From contig PLZI01000028.1 in the NCBI GenBank assembly GCA_003152095.1, forward strand, positions 1-38,671: a DNA stretch of 38,671 nucleotides, written 5' to 3'. Position numbers and translations under genes: made by a program. The DNA is from Acidobacteriota bacterium (GTDB lineage: Bacteria > Acidobacteriota > Thermoanaerobaculia > UBA5066). Every line of letters starts with the position of its first letter. Positions within the stretch are counted from its first letter, which is position 1. This document shows, in pieces, positions 5,773 through 37,499 of the stretch. The notes below the pieces were generated by a model that did not search any database, had not been told where the DNA came from, and worked only from the letters and a program-made list of their open reading frames with translations.

Positions 5773-6270
5773 ATGAAGATCCAGGCCATGCTCGACTGGT
5801 CCCCCGAGGAGAAGGCCGCCAAGGCGAAGGAGTGGGCGCAGTCCCTCTTCACGCTCCGCCTCCAGAAGGCCACGGGCCAACTCGAGAACCCGATGAAGAT
5901 CAAGGAGCTCCGGAAGGACATCGCCCGCCTGAAGACCGCGCAGCACATGACTGCGGCGGAGGAGGCGGCGGCGGCGGCGCATGAAGTGGCTCAGGGGACG
6001 GCGGCCGAAGAGAAGATTCCTGCGAATGAAAAGAAAACTGGCGCGGTGCCGAAGTCGGCGCGTTCGGCTGGTGCATCCGGCAAGGGCGCGAAGAAGCGCG
6101 CGGCAGCCCACAAGAAGAACGCGGCAGCCCACAAGAAGAAGACGAGCGGCGCGGCTGCCAAGCCCCACGCACCTTCCAAGAAATCTGCGGGCGCGTCCGG
6201 CGAGAAAGCGGGCCGCTCGAAGGCCAAGTCCGCTCCCGCAAAGACCGGCACGAAAAGCAAGAAGAAGTAG
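5773..6270 (+). CDS. rpmC: 50S ribosomal protein L29 with about 100-residue C-terminal extension
   Basis: L29 sits beside L23 at the tunnel exit. Residues 1 to about 60 are L29: an N-terminal helix followed by [32 protein letters not shown]. The usual protein is 60 to 70 residues; this one has 165. The rest is Ala/Lys/Ser-rich and includes two copies of AAAHKKN. The extension carries one pair of the AT-rich arms seen elsewhere in the window (6014-6033 and 6172-6188). A tail here would emerge near the nascent-chain exit. That placement is inferred from the family's location. Confidence 0.95.
6014..6188. repeat. Inverted AT-rich arm pair in rpmC extension (weak copy)
   Basis: The left arm AGATTCCTGCGAATGAAAAG (6014-6033) resembles the window-wide core GATTTCTTNGAAGG only loosely. 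The right arm CCTTCCAAGAAATCTGC (6172-6188) is close to the complement of the core. Both lie in the non-conserved L29 tail and are in frame. This is the most degenerate of the eight pairs. Confidence 0.4.
6100..6140 (+). repeat. Direct repeat, 21-base period, in rpmC
   Basis: GCGGCAGCCCACAAGAAGAA occurs at 6100-6119 and again at 6121-6140. It encodes two AAAHKKN units in the L29 extension. The two copies are identical at the DNA level, which points to a recent duplication. Confidence 0.85.
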
Positions 6271-9570: not shown

Positions 9571-10235
9571 GCAGCAACGCGCCGACCAATCGTCCCCCGC
9601 GTCCGAACCGTCCCGGCGGCCGCTCCGGCGGTCCCGGCGGCCCGCCGCAGCGCCCGCCGGGCGCTCTCGGTGAAGGCCGCGCGGGAGCCGACCTCATCGA
9701 TCACGTCGTGCACATCAACCGCGTGACCAAGGTCGTCAAGGGCGGCAAGAACTTCTCCTTCTCGGCCCTTGTCGTCGTGGGCGACGGACATGGCCGCGTC
9801 GGCTACGGCGCTGGCAAAGCGAAGGAAGTTCCGATGGCCATCAAGAAGGGGATCGAGATGGCGAAGAAGAAGATGATCAGCGTTCCGCTGAAGGGCAAGA
9901 CGATCCCGCATCCGATCGTCGGCCACTACGGCGCGGGCCGCGTCATGCTCAAGCCGGCCTCCGAGGGCACGGGCGTCATCGCGGGTGGCGCCGTCCGCGC
10001 CGTACTCGAGTCGGCGGGCGTCCAGAACATTCTGACGAAGTCGCTCGGCACGACGAATCCCCACAACGTCGTCAAGGCCACGTTCGACGCGCTACTGCAC
10101 CTGCAGCTCGAGTCGACGATCGCGAGGGCCCGCGGCGTGGGCAGCGGCGAGCCGAAGGCGGAAGCGGTCCCGGCGGCCCCGGTTCCGGCAGCGCCGGCGG
10201 TGGCGGCTCCGGAGACCACGGAGAAGATCGGATGA
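9567..10235 (+). CDS. rpsE: 30S ribosomal protein S5 with extensions at both ends
   Basis: S5 lies near the decoding centre and affects fidelity. The core runs from about residue 36 ([31 protein letters not shown]) through [18 protein letters not shown] to [17 protein letters not shown]. An N-terminal Pro/Gly/Arg tract of about 33 residues and an Ala/Pro-rich tail of about 35 bring it to 222. The start is a TTG (9567) overlapping the rplR stop, with AAGGGG about 10 bases upstream. No ATG lies before the core, so TTG is the best choice. Confidence 0.95.
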
Positions 10236-10639
10236 GTGAGACCGGAAAGAGCGATAAGAAAAAAGAAGAGAAGAAGATTTCTGCGAAAGTAAATGCGCCC
10301 GCGCCCGCCGTGCCGGCGGAGCCGAATGAGCCTGGCGAAGCGAACGCCGCGCCGGCCCTCTCTTCCCCTTCTAAGAAATCTTCCGCGGCCGCGTTAGCGG
10401 CCGTGCAGAAGCCCCCTGCGGCCGCGAAAGCGGCCGCTCCGAAGGCAAGCGGAGCTCTCCGTATTCGTCAGGTCAAGTCGGGCATTTGCGCGCCCGTCGA
10501 TCAGAAGCAGACTCTCTTCGGGCTCGGCCTCCGTCGCATTCGGCACGAGGTTGTTCGCCCCGACACCCCGACGGTTCGGGGCCAGGTCCACAAGGTCCGC
10601 CACCTCGTCGAAATCGTCGAGGGCGGCGTGGCGAGGTAA
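10232..10639 (+). CDS. rpmD: 50S ribosomal protein L30 with about 74-residue N-terminal extension
   Basis: L30 is a small 50S protein. The family protein, about 60 residues, corresponds only to residues 75-135 here: [47 protein letters not shown]. The first 74 residues are Lys/Glu- then Pro/Ala-rich. They hold a pair of the AT-rich arms (ISAKVNA and PSKKSS in protein) and two short hairpin-forming repeats. The ATG overlaps the rpsE stop as ATGA, which supports this early start. Confidence 0.94.
10273..10383. repeat. Inverted AT-rich arm pair in rpmD extension
   Basis: The left arm GAAGATTTCTGCGAAAG (10273-10289) and the right arm CCTTCTAAGAAATCTTC (10367-10383) are inverted complements at 14 of 17 positions. 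The spacer is 77 bases of Pro/Ala/Glu-rich coding sequence. The protein read-outs ISAKVNAP and PSKKSS recur almost unchanged in cysS. Confidence 0.75.
10385..10437 (+). repeat. Two tandem GCGGCCGC tetraloop hairpins in rpmD
   Basis: GCGGCCGC-GTTA-GCGGCCG (10385-10403, closing with a G-T wobble at 10404) and GCGGCCGC-GAAA-GCGGCCGC (10418-10437) are each 8-bp stems with 4-base loops. They begin 33 bases apart. The second has a GNRA loop. They encode Ala-rich linker (AAALAAV, AAAKAAA) in the L30 extension. Their proximity just after the inverted-arm pair is striking, but a role is not shown. Confidence 0.7.
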
Positions 10640-22275: not shown

Positions 22276-23790
22276 GTGACGCTCCGCCTCTACAACACGA
22301 TGAGCCGCTCCCTCGAGGAGTTCCGGCCCGTCCGTCCGGGCAAGATCGGGCTCTACACATGCGGCCCCACGGTCTACAACCGCGTGCACATCGGCAACCT
22401 CAGGACGTTCGTCTGGGAAGACGTGATGTGTCGCGTTTTCCGCGCCCTCTCCTACGAGACGACCCAGGTCATGAACCTCACCGACATCGACGACAAGACG
22501 ATTCGCGGCGCGATGGCCGCGGGGCTGCCGCTCCGTGAGTTCACCGACCGGCACATCGCGACGTTCTTCGCGGACCTCAACGCGCTCGGCGTCGTCCCGG
22601 CGACGCTCTATCCGCGCGCCACGGACCACATTCCCGAGATGGTCGCGCTCGTGAAAAAGCTCGCCGCGCGCGGCCACACCTACGAGAGCGACGGGTCCGT
22701 GTGGTTCCGCATCGCGACGTTCCCGGGCTACGGGAAGCTATCGAAGATCGACCTTTCGGCCGTGAAGCGCGGCGCGCGCGTGGCGGACGACGAGTACGAC
22801 AAGGAGGACGTGCGCGACTTCGCGGTCTGGAAAGTCGCGAAGGAAGGCGAGCCCGAGTCCGCCACGTGGACGACCGAGCTCGGCCGCGGACGGCCGGGCT
22901 GGCACCTCGAGTGCAGCGCCATGTCGATGAAGTACCTCGGCGAGACGTTCGACATCCACACCGGCGCCGTCGACAACATCTTTCCGCACCACGAGAACGA
23001 GATCGCGCAGAGCGAAGGCGCGACGGGGAAGCCCTTCGTCAACTTCTGGCTCCACGCCGAGCACCTTCTCGTGGACGGCGAGAAGATGGCGAAGAGCAAG
23101 GGGAACTTCTACACGCTGCCCGACCTCCTCGAGAAGGCCTTCTCCCCGCGCGCGATCCGCTACCTCCTCGTCTCCGTCCCGTATCGCATGAAGCTCAACT
23201 TCACCTTCGATGGGCTCAAGGCGGCGGCGTCGGCGGTCGAACGGCTGGAGTCGTTAGATTTGCGACTCAGAGAACGAGAGGGGAGGAAAGGGAAAGAAGA
23301 AGAGGAGATTTCTTTGAAGGTGAATGCACCCGAGGCGGCAGGCGGGGATTTCGCGGAACGGGTGTCAGCGGCGCATCGGGCGGTGTTCGATTCCCTTGAA
23401 GACGATTTGAACACCGCCGGCGCCCTGGGCGCTCTTTTCTCGTTCGTCAAGGCGACGAACGTGGACCTCGAGGCCGGCCACCTCTCGCCGGCGGACGCCA
23501 CGGCGGCGCGCGGCCTCCTCCACGAGATTGCCGGAAACATCCTCGGCATCATGCCGAGCGACGCCGCCAGCGGCCTCGCCTCTTCACCTTCTAAGAAATC
23601 TCCATCCGAATCTTCATCCGAATCCCGCGATGTCGACGAGACGTGGATCGACGCGCGCATCGCCGCCCGCAAGGCGGCCAAGAAAACACGCGACTTCAAG
23701 GCGGCCGACGCCATTCGGGACGAGCTTCTCGGGAGGGGAATCGTCCTCGAGGACACGCCCCATGGCGTGCGCTGGAAGAGGAAGCCTTGA
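22276..23790 (+). CDS. cysS: Cysteinyl-tRNA synthetase with two in-frame AT-rich inserts
   Basis: It charges tRNA-Cys. The 504-residue product has C29 in YTCGPTVYNRV, the class I signature HIGN (38-41), WHLECSAMS and HHENEIAQSE for the zinc site, and KMAKSKGNF (the KMSKS loop). The C-terminal end, AADAIRDELLGRGIVLEDTPHGVRW, is typical. Two segments look inserted relative to the family: a Lys/Glu-rich one around residues 330-355 and a Ser/Lys-rich one around 433-452. Each contains one arm of an inverted-repeat pair. The GTG start is used. The stop overlaps the -35 box of the downstream leader promoter. Confidence 0.95.
   Translation: MTLRLYNTMSRSLEEFRPVRPGKIGLYTCGPTVYNRVHIGNLRTFVWEDVMCRVFRALSYETTQVMNLTDIDDKTIRGAMAAGLPLREFTDRHIATFFADLNALGVVPATLYPRATDHIPEMVALVKKLAARGHTYESDGSVWFRIATFPGYGKLSKIDLSAVKRGARVADDEYDKEDVRDFAVWKVAKEGEPESATWTTELGRGRPGWHLECSAMSMKYLGETFDIHTGAVDNIFPHHENEIAQSEGATGKPFVNFWLHAEHLLVDGEKMAKSKGNFYTLPDLLEKAFSPRAIRYLLVSVPYRMKLNFTFDGLKAAASAVERLESLDLRLREREGRKGKEEEEISLKVNAPEAAGGDFAERVSAAHRAVFDSLEDDLNTAGALGALFSFVKATNVDLEAGHLSPADATAARGLLHEIAGNILGIMPSDAASGLASSPSKKSPSESSSESRDVDETWIDARIAARKAAKKTRDFKAADAIRDELLGRGIVLEDTPHGVRWKRKP
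23304..23603. repeat. Inverted AT-rich arm pair in cysS (21-base arms)
   Basis: The arm at 23304-23324 (core GATTTCTTTGAAGGTGAA) and the arm at 23583-23603 (core TTCACCTTCTAAGAAATC) are inverted complements at 20 of 21 positions. Between them lie 258 bases encoding the conserved CysRS helical domain, so the two arms sit at separate sites in the protein. They encode ISLKVNAP and SSPSKKSPS. AT-rich codons (ATT, TCT, TTG, AAA) contrast with the gene's usual GC-ending codons. Confidence 0.85.
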
Positions 23791-23950: not shown

Positions 23951-23971
23951 TCCGGAGGGAGTTTTCGTTTT
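23943..23971 (+). terminator. Attenuator terminator and ribosome-binding-site sequester before aroDE
   Basis: CCCTCCG (23943-23949), loop GTC and CGGAGGG (23953-23959) form a 7-bp stem followed by AGTTTTCGTTTT. The right arm contains GGAGGG, the ribosome-binding site for the TTG of aroDE at 23970. The hairpin could therefore stop transcription or, if transcription escapes, hide the ribosome-binding site. Both modes give the same regulatory sign. Confidence 0.7.
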
Positions 23972-25553
23972 GGCCCTGACCGCGGAGAACACGCTTCTCG
24001 TCGCCTCCGTCGCGCCGGTTTCGAACGCCGAGGCGTTCGAGGCGCGGGCGGCAATCGCCGATCTGCCCCCTTCGACCGCGGTGGAACTGCGCCTCGACGG
24101 CTTCGCAGAGGCGCCGGCGTATTCCGCGCTTCGCGCGTGCTTCGAAGGAAGACCCCTGATCGCGACGGTCCGTTCCGCCTCCGAAGGCGGCGGATTTCGC
24201 GGCAGCGCCAAGGAGGCCCAGCGACTCCTTTCGGAGGCCGCAGCCGCCGGGTTCGAATTCGTCGACGTCGAGCTCCGCCGTGACGGCGGAGGCGACGTCC
24301 CGGCCATCCCTCCTGCGAAGAAAATTCTCTCTCTCCACGATACCGAGGGCGTGCCGGCGGATCTCCACGCCCTCGTCGCCCGCATGCTCGCGACGCCGGC
24401 CCGGTTCGTGAAAGTCGTCGCGACGGCGAACGATTCCGGAGATGCTCGCCGCCTTCTCGAGCTTCAGGCCGCGCACCGGGACGGCCGCCTCGCGGCATTC
24501 GGCATGGGCGAGGCCGGCATCGCCACGCGCGCGCTTGCCCCGTATCTCGGCGCGGCTCTCGCGTTCGGCGCTCTTCTTCCCGGGCGCGCCACGGCGCCGG
24601 GACAGCTTCTCGCGCGTGACCTCTGGGAGATCTACGGCGTGGGCCGGAAGCGGAACGTGTCCCGGCTCTTCGCGATTCTCGGGGGCGTGGTCTCGCACTC
24701 GCTCTCGCCGGCTCTCCACAACGCGAACTTCGAAGCGCTCGGCATCGATGCGCTCTATGTCCCGTTTGCGATGCGGATGCTCGGGCGAGAGATCGAGTCT
24801 CTCCACGCCTCGCTCGACGCCCTCGGCCTGCCTCTGGCCGGGTTGTCCGTGACGATTCCGTTCAAGGAAGAGGCCGCTCTCCTCGCGGGGTCGGCGGAGG
24901 ACGGAGACGGGGCGGTGAACACGCTGCTCAGAACGAGCCCGACGGGCCAGCCGCTCCGGCTGCGCGCGGCGAACACCGACCGTACCGCGTTCGAGGCCGT
25001 GATTGAAGATGCTCCGAAGGAGAAAAGGAAAGAGAAGGGGAATGCGGGGGTCGCTCTCGTCCTCGGGGCGGGCGGCACGGCGAGGGTCGCTGTGGATGTT
25101 CTTAGAAAGAAGGAATATGAGGTCTTTCTCATGAACCGAGGCGACGAGCGCGGTGCGGCGCTTGCGAGAGCCAAGGGCGCCCATTACGTTTCCAAGAAAT
25201 CTTCAACGGCGTTTCCCCAGCCGGATGTCCTCATCAATGCGACGCCGCTTGGCCTGAATGAGGGCGATCCTCTTCCCTGCGAGCGGAGTCTCTTGCACCC
25301 CGGGATGCTCGTCATCGACGCGCCGTATCGCGCGGGCGGGACGGAGCTCGTCAAGGCTGCGCGCGCCGCCGGTGCGCGCGTCGTGGACGGCCAGGCGTTG
25401 CTCCTCATCCAAGCCGCGGGCCAGGCGACGCTTTTCACGGGCCGCAAGACAAGCCCGGAAAATCTGCGCAGCCGCCTTTCGACGCGCTTTCGTTCTCTCT
25501 TCTCGTCGTTCGAGAAACCTGTTCGAAGCTCCTCGCCGGAGATCGTGGCGTGA
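23970..25553 (+). CDS. aroDE: Bifunctional 3-dehydroquinate dehydratase (type I) / shikimate dehydrogenase
   Basis: It performs steps 3 and 4 of the shikimate pathway. The 527-residue product has an AroD half (about 1-215) with ELRLD (39-43), H123 (LSLHD), Schiff-base K148 and R187 (GEAGIATR). The AroE half (about 230-490) has SHSLSP (242-247), K299 (TIPFK), N335 and D337 (NTD), the NADP loop GAGGTAR (366-372) and Q481. The start is a TTG with GGAGGG 10 bases upstream inside the terminator hairpin. The 35-residue C-terminal tail is not typical. Arm-like AT-rich patches lie at 25005-25026, 25093-25117 and 25189-25204. Head gene of the operon. Confidence 0.94.
   Translation: MALTAENTLLVASVAPVSNAEAFEARAAIADLPPSTAVELRLDGFAEAPAYSALRACFEGRPLIATVRSASEGGGFRGSAKEAQRLLSEAAAAGFEFVDVELRRDGGGDVPAIPPAKKILSLHDTEGVPADLHALVARMLATPARFVKVVATANDSGDARRLLELQAAHRDGRLAAFGMGEAGIATRALAPYLGAALAFGALLPGRATAPGQLLARDLWEIYGVGRKRNVSRLFAILGGVVSHSLSPALHNANFEALGIDALYVPFAMRMLGREIESLHASLDALGLPLAGLSVTIPFKEEAALLAGSAEDGDGAVNTLLRTSPTGQPLRLRAANTDRTAFEAVIEDAPKEKRKEKGNAGVALVLGAGGTARVAVDVLRKKEYEVFLMNRGDERGAALARAKGAHYVSKKSSTAFPQPDVLINATPLGLNEGDPLPCERSLLHPGMLVIDAPYRAGGTELVKAARAAGARVVDGQALLLIQAAGQATLFTGRKTSPENLRSRLSTRFRSLFSSFEKPVRSSSPEIVA
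25005..25205. repeat. AT-rich arm copies in aroDE
   Basis: Left-type patches are GAAGAT..CCGAAGGAGAA (25005-25024), a second GAGAAGGGGAATGC (25032-25045) and TTCTTAGAAAGAAGG (about 25099-25113). The right-type arm is TTTCCAAGAAATCTTC (25189-25204), whose complement is close to GAAGATTTCTTGGAAA. They lie in the AroE half around the NADP loop and encode Lys/Glu-rich or SKKSS residues. Confidence 0.5.
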
Positions 25554-27181
25554 AGATCGAGAGGCCCGATCCGAACCTGCCGCGCGGCGTCCAGGCGTTC
25601 CTCTTCGACGCGGCCGAGCGCCGCCGCAAGGCCGAGGATTCTGTCGTGCGGAGGCTCCAGGAAGCGGGCCTGCGCGAGGTCATCCTGCCCGTCCTCGATT
25701 TCGCGGACCCGTACGCGGGCGTGACAGCCGAAGGCGACGAGCGCGTCTACCGGTTCCTCGACCGGCAGGGAAACACGCTCTCGCTCAGGGCGGACTTCAC
25801 TCCCATGGCCGCGCGGGTCATCGCGCCGCGCCTGGGCACGCTCTCGGGGCCCGTGTCTCTCTTCTACCGGGGCGACGTCGTGCGAGACGAAGAGACCGGT
25901 GTGGGGCGCCGCCGCGAATTCGCGCAGGTCGGCGCCGAACGTTACGGGGACGGCCGCCCGGAAGCGGATGGAGAGATGCTCGCGCTCGCCCTCTCGTGTC
26001 TGGGCGACATCCCGGCGGCGCGCCTGAGGCTCACGCTCGGTTGGGCAGGCCTCCTCGAACGGCTGCTCGTCGCGGTCGCGCCGGCGCTCGCGAAGGGCGG
26101 GGGCTCCGGACTCGCCGACGCCGTCGCCGCCGCCCGCGCCCGTCACGTGACGCAGCTCGAAGCGCTCCTCCGCGCCTCCGGTGCGGCGGAAGCGGCCGCC
26201 GTCCAGGTCGCTCGGGCTCTGCTCGTCGGATTCGAGCCGGGTTCTCAGCTCTTCCGGCCGCCCGTGCTCGCCGGCCCTTCGGCGGAGCTTGCGCGTGCCG
26301 CCGCGCTCGCGCGGTCCGCCCGGCCGGGACTGCCGGTCGTCGTCGACCTCGCGGACGCGCCCCAGGCCCCCTACTACACGGGGCTCACGTTCAGCGTGGA
26401 CGCCGCCAGCGGCGGCGGAACCATCGCCGGAGGCGGAAGGTACGACGGCCTGCTGGCGCGGTTCGGCACGGCCACGCCAGCCCTCGGGTTCTGCATCGGG
26501 CTCGAAACGCTTGGCGCCGGCACGGAAGCCGGCGAGGAGGCCGTGCGGCCGCTCCGCATCGCGGTGGGGAAGGGCCGGCTCCTTTCAAAGGCGCTCGAGG
26601 CGCTCCGCGCCGGTGGCGCGTCGTTCGGCGAGCCCGATGGGCGGCGCCTCCTCGTGCCCGCGACCGACGGCGCGTTCGAGCTCCTCCTCCTCAAGGACGA
26701 CGACGTGCCGACGTATGTGGCACACGGCGGAGCCGATCTGGGTATCGTGGGCAGCGACCGCGTCGCCGAGAGCGGCGAGGACGTCACGTCGCCCGTCGAG
26801 CTGCCCTTCGGCACCTGCCGACTGTCGCTGATTGGGAGGGCGGGCGAGCCCTTCCGTCCGAACGGCCAACCCGTGCGCGTGGGTACGAAGTATCGGCGCC
26901 TCGCCGCCCGCTACTTCGACGAAAGAAAGATCGCCCACGAGATCGTCCCGCTCGCGGGCTCGGTCGAGCTCGCGGCGGCGCTGAAGCTCACGGACGTCGT
27001 CGTGGACCTCATCGAGTCGGGCTCCACGATGGCCGCGAACGGCCTCGCCGAGATCGAGACCATCCTGCCGAGCTGCGCGACGCTCATCCTCGGGCGCGCC
27101 TCGCTCGTGGCGCGCCGCGCCGAGATCGCGGAATTCGTCGAGCGCCTGCGGGCCCACGTGGGGAAGGCGAAAGCTTCATGA
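25550..27181 (+). CDS. hisZG: Fused ATP phosphoribosyltransferase: HisZ regulatory subunit plus HisG short-form catalytic subunit
   Basis: It catalyses the first step of His synthesis, ATP plus PRPP to phosphoribosyl-ATP. Residues 1 to about 325 are HisZ, a HisRS-like fold with LSLRADFTPMAARVIA, motif 2 FYRGDVVRDEETGVGRRREFAQVGAE, and motif 3 GGGRYDGLLARFG. Residues 333-543 are short-form HisG: LRIAVGKGRLL, ADLGIVGSD, LPFGTCRLSLIG, and the PRPP loop DVVVDLIESGSTMAANGL (482-499). In most bacteria with short HisG the two are separate polypeptides in a hetero-octamer. No stop or frameshift separates them here. The GTG start overlaps the aroDE stop. Confidence 0.93.
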   Translation: MKIERPDPNLPRGVQAFLFDAAERRRKAEDSVVRRLQEAGLREVILPVLDFADPYAGVTAEGDERVYRFLDRQGNTLSLRADFTPMAARVIAPRLGTLSGPVSLFYRGDVVRDEETGVGRRREFAQVGAERYGDGRPEADGEMLALALSCLGDIPAARLRLTLGWAGLLERLLVAVAPALAKGGGSGLADAVAAARARHVTQLEALLRASGAAEAAAVQVARALLVGFEPGSQLFRPPVLAGPSAELARAAALARSARPGLPVVVDLADAPQAPYYTGLTFSVDAASGGGTIAGGGRYDGLLARFGTATPALGFCIGLETLGAGTEAGEEAVRPLRIAVGKGRLLSKALEALRAGGASFGEPDGRRLLVPATDGAFELLLLKDDDVPTYVAHGGADLGIVGSDRVAESGEDVTSPVELPFGTCRLSLIGRAGEPFRPNGQPVRVGTKYRRLAARYFDERKIAHEIVPLAGSVELAAALKLTDVVVDLIESGSTMAANGLAEIETILPSCATLILGRASLVARRAEIAEFVERLRAHVGKAKAS

Positions 27182-28572
27182 TGAGGATCGTCGACGCGGC
27201 CACACGCGCCGGGCGCGCGGAGCTGGAGATTCTGCTGAAGAGCCGCCGCGGCGGCTCTCCCGATTTCGCCACGCTGAAGCAGGTCCTGCCGATCGTCGAA
27301 GACGTTCTGCGAAGAGGGGAACCCGCGCTGAGGGAATACGTGAAGCACTTCGACCTGGACTCTCGCTTGTCGTCCGGGCGCTTTTCTTCGAAGGGTGAAA
27401 GAGGGCGCGGCGTCATGGGGCCGGCGCCGCGGTTTCGCGACCAGCTGTTTCACCCTTCTAAGAAACTCTTGATCAATCCTCGTCTCCAGAGGCTGCCTCG
27501 CATGGACGCGTCGTTCGTCCGCGCGTTCCGCCTCGCCCGCCGGCGCATTGAGGCTTATCACCGCAAGCAGCTCTCATGCGCATCGTCGGGCTTCTCTTTC
27601 AAAGACTCTCTCGGCGTCTCCTTCACCGAGAAGCCCGTGCCGTTCGACTCCGTGGGCGTCTACGTGCCGGGAGGCCGGGCGTTCTATCCGTCCTCGCTCC
27701 TGATGGGCGTCGTGCCGGCGCGCATCGCGGGAGTGCCGCGGGTCGTCGTTGCGACGCCGCCTCGCGCGTGGGCGTCCAGCCCCGAATTGCGCTGGGCGGC
27801 GCGCGAGCTGGGCGTCGACGAGGTTCTCCTCGCGGGCGGGGCCCACGGCATCGCGGGCCTCGTCTCCGTATGCGGCGTCGCGAAGATCGTGGGCCCCGGC
27901 AGCCGCTTTGTCGCGGCAGCGAAGCAACTCGTCTCGGGCCTCGTGGCCGTGGACATGCCGGCCGGGCCCTCGGAAGTGCTCATCGTCGCTTCGGGCGACG
28001 CCGACCGGGCCCTCGTCGCCGCGGACCTCCTCGCGCAGGCGGAGCACGATCCAGATGCGCTCTGCCTCCTGTTCACGGACTCGAAGGCTCTTGGCGCCGA
28101 CGTGCGGGCCAGCGTCTCGCGGCAATGGACGTCCCTCGATTCGGTTTCTTTGAAGGGGAATGCAGATACGGCGCACGCCTCGCTGCGTCGGCGCGGCCGA
28201 ATCTTCATTTTCGAGGAGATCTTTCGCGCCGCGTCCGTTGGCGCTCAGATTGCCGCCGAGCACGTTCAGTTGATGGGGAGGTCCGCCGAGAAGCTCAGCC
28301 GTCTTCTTCTTCCCTCCGCCGGCGCCCTGTTCATCGGCTCGTCGACGCCAACGGCGCTCGGCGATTACGTCGCGGGACCGAACCACGTGCTGCCCACGGG
28401 CGGCGCGGCGCGCAGTTTCTCGGGTCTCTCGGTGCGTGACTTCCTGCGCTGGGGCCGTTCCGTGAGCGTGCCGGAGAGGGCGGCGCGGCGCCTCGCGCCT
28501 TCAGCTGCGGTCCTCGCGCGTTTCGAAGGCCTCGTGGCGCACGCGGAGTCTCTCGAGAGGAGGGCACGATGA
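27178..28572 (+). CDS. hisD: Histidinol dehydrogenase with N-terminal-domain inserts
   Basis: It performs the last two oxidations of His synthesis. The 464-residue product has VPGGRAFYPSSLLMGVVPARIAGV, GPGSRFVAAAKQLV, AGPSEVLIVASGDAD and LLAQAEHDPDA with the zinc ligands Q and H. EHVQLM (catalytic Glu-His), YVAGPNHVLPTGG and the C-terminal GLVAHAESLERR follow. It is about 25 to 30 residues longer than usual. The excess falls in the N-terminal domain around residues 65-100, where an inverted AT-rich arm pair sits. Start ATG 27178 or 27181, both in frame; the first overlaps the hisZG stop. Confidence 0.95.
   Translation: MMRIVDAATRAGRAELEILLKSRRGGSPDFATLKQVLPIVEDVLRRGEPALREYVKHFDLDSRLSSGRFSSKGERGRGVMGPAPRFRDQLFHPSKKLLINPRLQRLPRMDASFVRAFRLARRRIEAYHRKQLSCASSGFSFKDSLGVSFTEKPVPFDSVGVYVPGGRAFYPSSLLMGVVPARIAGVPRVVVATPPRAWASSPELRWAARELGVDEVLLAGGAHGIAGLVSVCGVAKIVGPGSRFVAAAKQLVSGLVAVDMPAGPSEVLIVASGDADRALVAADLLAQAEHDPDALCLLFTDSKALGADVRASVSRQWTSLDSVSLKGNADTAHASLRRRGRIFIFEEIFRAASVGAQIAAEHVQLMGRSAEKLSRLLLPSAGALFIGSSTPTALGDYVAGPNHVLPTGGAARSFSGLSVRDFLRWGRSVSVPERAARRLAPSAAVLARFEGLVAHAESLERRAR
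27382..27466. repeat. Inverted AT-rich arm pair in hisD (19-base arms)
   Basis: TTTTCTTCGAAGGGTGAAA (27382-27400) and TTTCACCCTTCTAAGAAAC (27448-27466) are inverted complements at 17 of 19 positions, with a 47-base spacer. They share the extension GGGTGAAA, which is not in the general core, so the two arms of this pair match each other better than they match arms elsewhere. They encode FSSKGER and HPSKKL in a non-conserved part of HisD. Confidence 0.85.
27586..28163. repeat. Further single arms in hisD
   Basis: GTTTCTTTGAAGGGGAATGC at 28144-28163 is a good copy of the left arm and encodes SLKGNAD. TTCTCTTTCAAAGACTC near 27588-27604 is its best, imperfect complement in this gene. Here the order is reversed, complement first, unlike the eight regular pairs, so they may be independent copies. 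Confidence 0.5.
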
Positions 28573-30855: not shown

Positions 30856-31613
30856 GCGGCGGGCGGCTTGCCCTCTGGCCCGCGATCGACCTCATGGGCG
30901 GACGCGTCGTCCGGCTGCTTCACGGCAAGCGTGAGGCCGCGACCTTCTACGATGAACCTCCCGCTCAGGCCGCGCACCGGTTCGCTGCCGAGGGCGCCGA
31001 CGGCATCCACGTCGTGGACCTCGACGCTGCGTTTGGCACGGGAGAAAACAGAAAAGAAATCGAAGAAATACTTTCTGTTTCGGACGCTTCCGGGGTGGCG
31101 GTGCAGGTCGGGGGTGGGCTGCGCACGGCCCCCGCCGTCGAAGATTTCTTGGAAAGGGCGAGTACCGCCCGCGCGGTGGTGGGCAGCTTGCCGTTCCTCG
31201 ACCGCCCCGCCTTCACGCACCTTCTAAGAAAATATAGATCTCTCGTGGTCGCTCTCGACTGCAAGGGCGGCCGGCCGACGGTGCGCGGGTGGTCCGAGGA
31301 CGCCGGGGCGGGGGATGCGGCGTCCGTGGCGCGTTCGCTCGCGGAGCTCGGCGTCTCCGCGCTCCTCGTCACCGACGTCGCGCGCGACGGGACGATGACG
31401 GGTCCGAATCTCGAGCTTCTGTCCGCCGTGCGGGCCGTCTTTTCCGGCGAAATCCTGGCCTCGGGGGGGATGCGCGGAGAGGAAGATCTCGCCCCCGTGA
31501 ACCGCGCGCTCGCGGGCGGGCCCTGCGGCGCGATCTTCGGCCGCGCGCTTCACTCCGGAGCGACGACCGTGGCACGGCTCCGGGCGGCGCGCGACCTCGG
31601 GCGGCCGTCATGA
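30852..31613 (+). CDS. hisA: Phosphoribosylformimino-AICAR-P isomerase
   Basis: A beta/alpha-barrel isomerase in the middle of the His pathway. The 253-residue product has [17 protein letters not shown] (catalytic Asp near 13), VQVGGGLRT and [14 protein letters not shown] (the second Asp). It ends with a normal barrel, [11 protein letters not shown]. Two AT-rich arms (31144-31160 and 31216-31232) and an AT-rich inverted repeat (31046-31080) are within it. The first arm encodes EDFLERAST, a conserved position, so these bases are not all extra sequence. The ATG overlaps the hisH stop. Confidence 0.95.
31046..31080. repeat. AAACAGAAA / TTTCTGTTT inverted repeat in hisA
   Basis: AAACAGAAA (31046-31054) and TTTCTGTTT (31072-31080) form a perfect 9-bp inverted repeat with a 17-base loop. 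It lies in a strongly AT-rich patch coding for [12 protein letters not shown], unlike the surrounding GC-rich sequence. Confidence 0.7.
31144..31232. repeat. Inverted AT-rich arm pair in hisA
   Basis: ATTTCTTGGAAAGGGCG (31144-31160) and CGCACCTTCTAAGAAAA (31216-31232) are inverted complements at 13 of 17 positions, spaced by 55 bases of conserved HisA coding sequence. The shared GCG/CGC ends extend beyond the general core, again pair-specific. Confidence 0.6.
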
Positions 31614-36016: not shown

Positions 36017-36037
36017 GGGCGCCGTTGCTCAAGACTT

Positions 36038-36227
36038 CTTTGAAAGGGAAGAGGGTGTGAGCGGCTCGATTCTGGGCGAAATTCTCGCGGCCAAGCGAAG
36101 GCGCATTGCGGCTGGCGAGTTCACGGCCGAGGGGGGCGCGCGTGCACGGTCTGGCGCGGGCGCGGCCTTACCCGTTGCTCCGCCGGATGGCGCCCGCTTC
36201 GCGGCTGCTCTCTCTTCCTTTTCTAAG
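36038..36227. repeat. Inverted AT-rich arm pair spanning the trpCF start
   Basis: CTTTGAAAGGGAAGAGGG (36038-36055) and CTCTCTTCCTTTTCTAAG (36210-36227) are inverted complements at 15 of 18 positions. The left arm is outside coding sequence, in the trpD-trpCF gap, and supplies the purine-rich ribosome-binding region of trpCF. The right arm is within the TrpC N-terminal insert. Pairing in the mRNA would cover the trpCF ribosome-binding site. Confidence 0.75.
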
Positions 36228-37499
36228 CAGAATCTTCTTTCTTCTCCCCCTCGTCTTCTCTCCGAAATAAAACAGCGTTCTCCGAGCGCTGGCCTGATCC
36301 TTCCCGAAGCGTCTTCGCGAATCGAGTCCGTCGCCTGCGCCTATCGTCGCGGAGGAGCATCGGCGGTGTCGGTCGTCGTCGAGCAGGACTTCTTCGGCGG
36401 CGACCCGTCGTGGCTGCCCCGCGCGAAGGCGGCGTCGGGCCTGCCCGTCCTGATGAAGGATTTCGTCGTGGACGAGCTCCAGCTGGATTTCGCAGCCGCC
36501 CTCGGAGCCGATGCGGTGCTCCTGATCGTGGCGGCCCTCGACGACGCGGCGCTCGCGCGGCTGCACGCGGCCGCACGGACACGCTCTCTCGCCGTCCTCG
36601 TGGAAGCACACGACGACGCCGAGATCCGGCGGGCGCTCGCCGCGGGCGCGGAGATCGTCGGCGTCAACGCCCGCGACCTCGAGACCTTCGCCGTCGACCT
36701 GCCGGGCATGGCCAGCCTCGGGGCGCTCCTGCCGGCATCCGTCATCCGGGTGGCCGAGAGCGGAATCCGGACGCGTGCCGACGTCGAGGCGCTCGCGGCC
36801 GCCGGCTACGGCGCGTTCCTCGTAGGTGAGACTCTCCTCAGAGCCGCGGACCCGTCCCACGTGCTTCGCGAGTTGCGAGGCGAGAACGCGACCGAGATCA
36901 AGATTTGCGGCGTCACGCGGGAAGAGGACGTCGGCACGTGCATGGAGCTCGGCGTGGACTGGATCGGGCTCGTCTTCGCGGCGGGATCGCCGCGGCGGGT
37001 GACGCTGGAAAGAGGGATTTCTTTGAAGGAAAGAGCGCGGGCGGCCAAGGGTGTCGTGGCCGTCTTCGCGGAGAACACCGAGAAGGAAATCCAGGAGGTG
37101 CTCGAACGCATTTGCCCGGACGTCGTTCAGATGCCGAATCCCCCTCTTCCCCTTCAGAAGAAATTCTCTTCGGTCTTTTCTTTCTGGAACACGATCCGCG
37201 TCGGCCGCGACGACCTTTCCTCTGCGAGGCAAGCTGAAGGCGACGCCCTCCACTTCGACACGTCCGTCGGTGGCATGAGCGGAGGGACCGGGAAGACCTT
37301 CGACTGGTCGCTGTTGAACTCGATCGATCGCGAGCGCCCCGTGGTTCTCGCCGGCGGCCTGAGACCCGAAAACGTCGCAGACGCCGTGAGAAGCGTGAGG
37401 CCCGACATCGTGGATGTGGCCTCGGGAGTGGAATCCGCGCCGGGGATCAAGGACCGGGCGAAAATTAAGGCGTTCGTGAGGGAGGTGCGACGTGCCTGA
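36057..37499 (+). CDS. trpCF: Bifunctional indole-3-glycerol-phosphate synthase / phosphoribosylanthranilate isomerase
   Basis: It performs two consecutive Trp steps in one chain of 480 residues. TrpC (about 1-275): [58 protein letters not shown] and [12 protein letters not shown]. TrpF (about 282-480): [11 protein letters not shown] with the catalytic Cys, [19 protein letters not shown] with the Asp, and [11 protein letters not shown] 25-residue Ala/Gly/Ser insert separates the TrpC N-terminal helix from its core. The GTG at 36057 is preferred since no other start codon lies in frame after the trpD stop. Note the arm pairs at 36038-36227 and 37017-37164. Confidence 0.94.
37017..37164. repeat. 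Inverted AT-rich arm pair in the trpF part
   Basis: ATTTCTTTGAAGGAAAGAG (37017-37035) and the arm at 37144-37164 (core CCCCTTCAGAAGAAAT) are inverted complements apart from small gaps and two mismatches. The read-outs are ISLKERAR and LPLQKKFSS. The right arm is followed by more AT-rich sequence (to about 37195). Confidence 0.65.

Follow-up and report, generated by a model that had tools for sequence, protein, structure and literature searches.

Inverted arms in a cysteinyl-tRNA synthetase gene belong to a genus-specific family of putative DNA recognition sites dispersed as outward-facing pairs

The cysteinyl-tRNA synthetase (CysRS) gene, cysS, of an Acidobacteriota bacterium (Thermoanaerobaculia; UBA5066) carries two short inverted arms, which are two of approximately 700 copies of a single DNA motif found in the sequence examined from its genus. 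Comparisons within the genus have established that this motif is dispersed, that it occurs mostly as outward-facing inverted pairs whose arms flank 40-200 bp of native sequence, and that it is conserved at the DNA level with indifference to gene, reading frame and strand. The arms are best explained as members of a site family specific to the genus that would be recognised in double-stranded DNA, the sites being arranged in outward-facing pairs and serving a putative DNA-binding machine, a reading to which we assign a probability of roughly 0.55. It is proposed more tentatively that they may form a chromosome-wide system confined to one genus, in which several hundred outward-facing pairs within ordinary genes would constitute two-armed units acting outside transcription. 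All the evidence is sequence-based and was drawn from metagenome assemblies, including the window in which the CysRS arms lie (the whole stretch of 38,671 nucleotides analysed here, contig PLZI01000028.1 of assembly GCA_003152095.1).

In cysS, the left arm (GGAGATTTCTTTGAAGGTGAA, positions 23304-23324) and the right arm (TTCACCTTCTAAGAAATCTCC, positions 23583-23603) are separated by 258 bases, and the reverse complement of the right arm, GGAGATTTCTTAGAAGGTGAA, is identical to the left arm at 20 of 21 positions, with the sole mismatch falling on the free N position of the motif consensus. These coordinates and this match count reproduce those given in a sequence-only reading of the window, which had also considered chance similarity unlikely; in agreement with that judgement, when the window was simulated 100 times with an order-2 Markov model, no comparable inverted repeat arose (21 nt, no more than 1 mismatch, arms within 350 bp of each other). 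A conserved helical domain had been placed between the arms, and the Pfam domain DALR_2 (residues 372-425) was indeed detected there; solved CysRS homologues are present in the PDB, and the arms correspond to the linkers before and after this domain. The proposal of two separate insert sites within the gene was borne out by alignment with CysRS from sister genera (L032-L035, Thermoanaerobaculia and Acidobacteria MAGs), where neither insert occurs. Among same-genus sequences, both arms occur in L031, and the left one occurs in L036, where it adjoins an assembly gap. The alternative that both segments are ordinary conserved CysRS loops fails, since sister genera lack the two of them while L031 has both.

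The CysRS arms encode the peptides ISLKVNAP and SPSKKSP, and their claimed recurrence in rpmD was found in the form of ISAKVNAP and SPSKKSS, located in the N-terminal extension of RpmD and again at a motif pair. The peptides are common to CysRS and RpmD because a shared DNA motif underlies both, and the CysRS arms are complementary because two copies of one motif stand in opposite orientation. This motif occurs in every frame, on either gene strand and also in intergenic sequence, and is therefore a property neither of the peptides nor of CysRS. The sequence-only reading was correct in recognising related inverted inserts, their recurrence in rpmD and their non-chance origin; it was incomplete in that the signal is a dispersed DNA motif.

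The motif consensus is CACCTTCNAAGAAATCTTC plus a pyrimidine-rich outer tail. Its core, TTCNNNGAA, is an imperfect palindrome oriented by its flanks, with CC on the inner side and ATCTTC followed by the pyrimidine tail on the outer side; the outer tail extends over approximately 20 nt, and the inner pyrimidine stretch is shorter. In the window, CCTTCTAAGAAATCT was found 12 times with at most 3 mismatches (0.28 expected), and the pairs are listed in Table 1. The genome to which the window belongs holds 23 exact copies of CCTTCNAAGAAATCT, compared to 0 for a reversed control, and 155 copies within 2 mismatches, compared to 8, while the three other genomes of the genus hold 40, 43 and 27 exact copies. 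The motif is thus present in 4 of 4 genus genomes; it is present in 0 of 10 genomes from six other genera of the family, and a single copy was detected in 3 of 135 further genomes of the class. Shorter words follow the same distribution, with 64-93 copies of the 12-mer TTTCTTAGAAGG in genus genomes and 0 in sister-genus genomes, and with the 10-mer TTTCTTAGAA as the top overrepresented 10-mer of genus sequence (109 copies vs 0.4 expected). Sites were located using a 24-position weight matrix in 2.25 Mb covering three species of the genus (three genomes plus L036), some stretches having been picked for holding exact copies, which yielded 693 sites and 203 outward-facing pairs; the first 1.52 Mb gave 465 sites, compared to 20 in a Markov control at equal threshold. 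An assembly artefact was ruled out by the lack of enrichment at contig ends and by conservation across independent assemblies. No alternative motif dialect was seen in approximately 250 kb from sister genera, a sample of low power, and no paper joining Thermoanaerobaculia and inverted repeat was found in the literature collection searched. In a group of approximately 20 arms (e.g., L113:16741, L125:13910, L136:7005), which are often unpaired, an outer tail like TTTGCAGACCGTC replaces the pyrimidine tail.

Table 1. Positions of the cysS host gene and of the paired motif arms in the window.
Feature	Position	Strand	Remarks
cysS host gene	22276..23790	+	Pfam, sister-genus alignment, solved CysRS homologues; DALR_2 between arms
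CysRS pair, left arm core	23306..23320	-	motif CCTTCAAAGAAATCT on minus strand; exact match to CCTTCNAAGAAATCT; kept in L031, L036
CysRS pair, right arm core	23587..23601	+	CCTTCTAAGAAATCT, exact match; kept in L031
L29-gene pair, left arm	6014..6028	-	in C-terminal extension (gene 5773-6270); weight-matrix pair, conserved in G005
L29-gene pair, right arm	6172..6186	+	
rpmD pair, left arm	10275..10289	-	N-terminal extension (gene 10232-10639); encodes ISAKVNAP
rpmD pair, right arm	10367..10381	+	encodes SPSKKSS
Fused aroD-aroE gene pair, left arm	25095..25109	-	kept in L036
Fused aroD-aroE gene pair, right arm	25188..25202	+	kept in L036
First hisD pair, left arm	27380..27394	-	
First hisD pair, right arm	27454..27468	+	
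Second hisD pair, left arm	28142..28156	-	
Second hisD pair, right arm	28208..28222	+	conserved in G005 and L036
hisA pair, left arm	31142..31156	-	conserved in G005
hisA pair, right arm	31220..31234	+	
Intergenic pair, left arm	36032..36046	-	in gap before trpC-trpF gene
Intergenic pair, right arm	36219..36233	+	before trpC-trpF gene
Fused trpC-trpF gene pair, left arm	37015..37029	-	
Fused trpC-trpF gene pair, right arm	37152..37166	+	

The arrangement of the sites is strongly oriented. Neighbours lying within 300 bp of each other are found 133 times in the -+ orientation, compared to 28 for ++, 24 for -- and 11 for +-, and a correlogram around strong sites shows partners of opposite orientation inward of the site, 40-200 bp away, with almost none outward of it. 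A typical pair faces outward with its arms approximately 100 bases apart, and 287 of the 693 arms are unpaired. Pair interiors consist of native gene sequence and are unrelated between pairs, except for orthologues and kinase paralogues. In L138 (G004 contig 28), five motif pairs stand in a row, each approximately 92 bp apart, in consecutive genes for apparent Ser/Thr protein kinases, whose identity was partly read from the translated sequence in addition to the Pfam tally.

An inverted geometry could be read in RNA, where the arms would form a long mRNA stem or each would act separately, for instance as a Rho-utilisation-like pyrimidine tract. We regard this as very improbable. The predicted fold of the CysRS segment does pair both arms (z -4.6) and the outer tails are pyrimidine-rich; however, a swap test in three genomes, which led to the rejection of hairpin selection, showed that true partners have no greater complementarity than arms exchanged between pairs, and agreement at the variable position of paired arms is only slightly above expectation (z 1.9). 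Neither covariation between arms nor excess complementarity between pair partners was found, which makes a selected hairpin unlikely and points to the CysRS fold as a by-product of two inverted copies. Single arms also lack a sense or antisense bias, pairs straddle divergent promoters, and the window has no match in Rfam, all of which argue against a role in RNA.

Comparison of orthologous sites between species has revealed an identity of 0.83-0.95 within the core, of approximately 0.73 in the flanks and of 0.71 at the free N, which is conserved at flank level. All six fixed core bases are retained in 71% of orthologues; outside the motif the same hexamer is retained in 31%, and decoy patterns are retained in 15-58%. 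Despite this higher core retention the flanks of motif sites are less conserved than the flanks in that comparison. For orthologues of pairs, the 123 comparisons include 90 with both arms retained and 3 with neither, and the spacing drifts across species (e.g., from 278 to 347). These comparisons indicate that the core is kept by purifying selection, acting at fixed places and at the DNA level. Arm retention in coding sequence is 0.83 for unpaired and 0.89 for paired arms; since unpaired arms are retained nearly as well, function may not reside in the pair alone. Some arms arose through in-place substitution without insertion (aroDE), and where an orthologue lacks an arm (26 arms), a length difference of 19-49 nt is found at the same place in about half of the cases.

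With regard to genes, pairs were placed by means of a simple custom gene caller, and 116 of 136 lie inside one gene, where random placement gives 113. Arms occur in every reading frame and on both gene strands, the unpaired strong arms comprising 70 sense, 69 antisense and 44 intergenic copies, with an intergenic enrichment of approximately 4-fold. Pairs spanning divergent genes or promoters number 11, compared to 5.3 expected. Site density is 6.1 per 10 kb in the lowest quartile of gene identity and 0.7 in the highest, and reaches 3.70 per 10 kb in DNA shared between species, compared to 1.51 in lineage-specific stretches. In 17 aminoacyl-tRNA synthetase genes (G000, G004 and G005, with orthologues counted more than once), 41 sites were found where 10 are expected. 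Motif sites in this class of genes are thus approximately four times denser than average, and the IleRS gene has three pairs in two species. A further pair (671 minus, 773 plus) lies in L202:3-1521, at the junction of a gene for an IMS/ImuB-like polymerase and a RecA-like gene, the latter possibly of the ImuA type.

DUS in Neisseria and USS in Pasteurellaceae mark DNA for preferential uptake. The main functional rival holds that the genus motif does the same in natural transformation, having been spread and maintained by biased recombination. It leads among functional rivals because the enrichment in the core genome and in permissive places fits what has been described for DUS (PMC3630211), although on the whole we consider it unlikely. 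The motif behaves as a genus-specific dialect overrepresented genome-wide, its sites occupy all frames, unpaired arms are enriched between genes, and density is higher both in species-shared DNA and in permissive, less conserved genes. ComEC was detected in all four genus genomes, but it is equally present in motif-free sister genera. Degenerate copies far exceed perfect ones in the genus, whereas DUS dialects are described as remarkably conserved within species (PMC3630211). Inverted pairs are known for DUS as well, yet they go with terminator stem-loops and not with 40-200 bp of enclosed coding DNA, and no counterpart of the orientation rule was found in the descriptions of DUS consulted. 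When compared to DUS and USS, the motif is similarly dispersed, lineage-specific, intragenic in permissive places and denser in the shared genome; it is distinguished by being much longer and more degenerate, and by its strict outward orientation around coding DNA.

The pairs could also be REPIN- or MITE-like doublets spread by an arm-recognising transposase, which appears quite improbable. The preponderance of inverted short-repeat doublets with limited spacing recalls REPINs, for which spacings peak at 71 and 110 bp (PMC3116915), and the length differences at about half of the arms missing from orthologues would suit insertion. Nonetheless, Y1 transposases (RAYT family) were found in 0 of 4 genus genomes, flanks outside the motif reveal no clear copying between unrelated arms, and some arms formed by substitution without insertion. 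Pairs are not inserted MITEs, because their interiors are unrelated and the CysRS interior is the conserved domain itself. Both candidates were rejected on the absence of RAYT and on the native interiors, and REPIN fails on location too, since REPs are extragenic and most pairs are intragenic. In short, hundreds of inverted doublets approximately 40-200 bp apart, built from a short lineage-specific motif, resemble REPINs, while a mostly genic position, unrelated native interiors, a RAYT-free genus and a core under purifying selection at fixed places set them apart. Y1_Tnp is present in 8 of 10 sister genomes, representing five of six other genera of the family. The genus genomes (G000, G003, G004 and G005) measure 3.5-3.7 Mb and are smaller than most sisters. 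A likeness also exists to Rickettsia palindromic elements (RPEs), short repeats through which ordinary proteins gain in-frame peptides, but RPEs are inserted units of approximately 150 bp (PMC10969869), whereas here only the arms have the look of additions, the interior being host-gene sequence. Viral carriers were rejected as well, the single pair match (50-80 bp gaps) lying on an AT-rich unrelated phage contig and being taken as chance.

According to the preferred reading of the arms as DNA recognition sites, a putative DNA-binding factor of the genus would recognise outward-facing site pairs in double-stranded DNA, and the role of the sites would concern the chromosome as a whole (its organisation, its recombination, or the marking of own DNA) rather than the host gene. 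The existence of this cognate factor and its purpose are what we infer from the patterns above. Coding sequence would take up the sites in permissive linkers through substitutions and short in-frame insertions, and this accommodation would explain the two odd linkers around the DALR domain of CysRS. At the protein level these linkers, like the L29 and L30 extensions, are most readily understood as side effects of the DNA sites. Looping of 40-100 bp of DNA predicts helical phasing; a first deduplicated set gave a mean resultant of 0.18 at 10.5 bp, and once the anchors were refined and the kinase paralogues taken out, the phasing had a p of 0.08. Neither ParB (ParB_N) nor integrases are expanded in the genus, with counts similar to those of sister genera.

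Noc and SlmA are division regulators with scattered chromosomal binding sites, tens per genome. The genus motif shares with these sites a palindromic core and a scattering over the chromosome, and it is conserved at the DNA level independently of genes; it differs in being far more numerous and in its asymmetric flanks and outward-facing pairs. If the preferred reading is true, lineage-specific chromosomal signals, known so far from a few model groups, would gain an example outside those groups, and one whose two-armed geometry is unusual. The analysis also indicates that universal proteins (CysRS, L29, L30, HisA) can acquire unusual linkers as by-products of selection at the DNA level, which bears on structural and phylogenetic studies. 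With a motif and a set of pairs this specific, a binding factor could be fished out directly.

Additional aspects of the genes in the window were observed. Outside their Pfam domains, L29 is extended by a long stretch at its C-terminus and L30 (RpmD) at its N-terminus, and a motif pair lies in each extension. Three genes are fusions according to Pfam, one joining a dehydroquinase and a shikimate dehydrogenase (23970-25553), one a HisRS-like domain and HisG (25550-27181), and one IGPS and PRAI (36366-37499).
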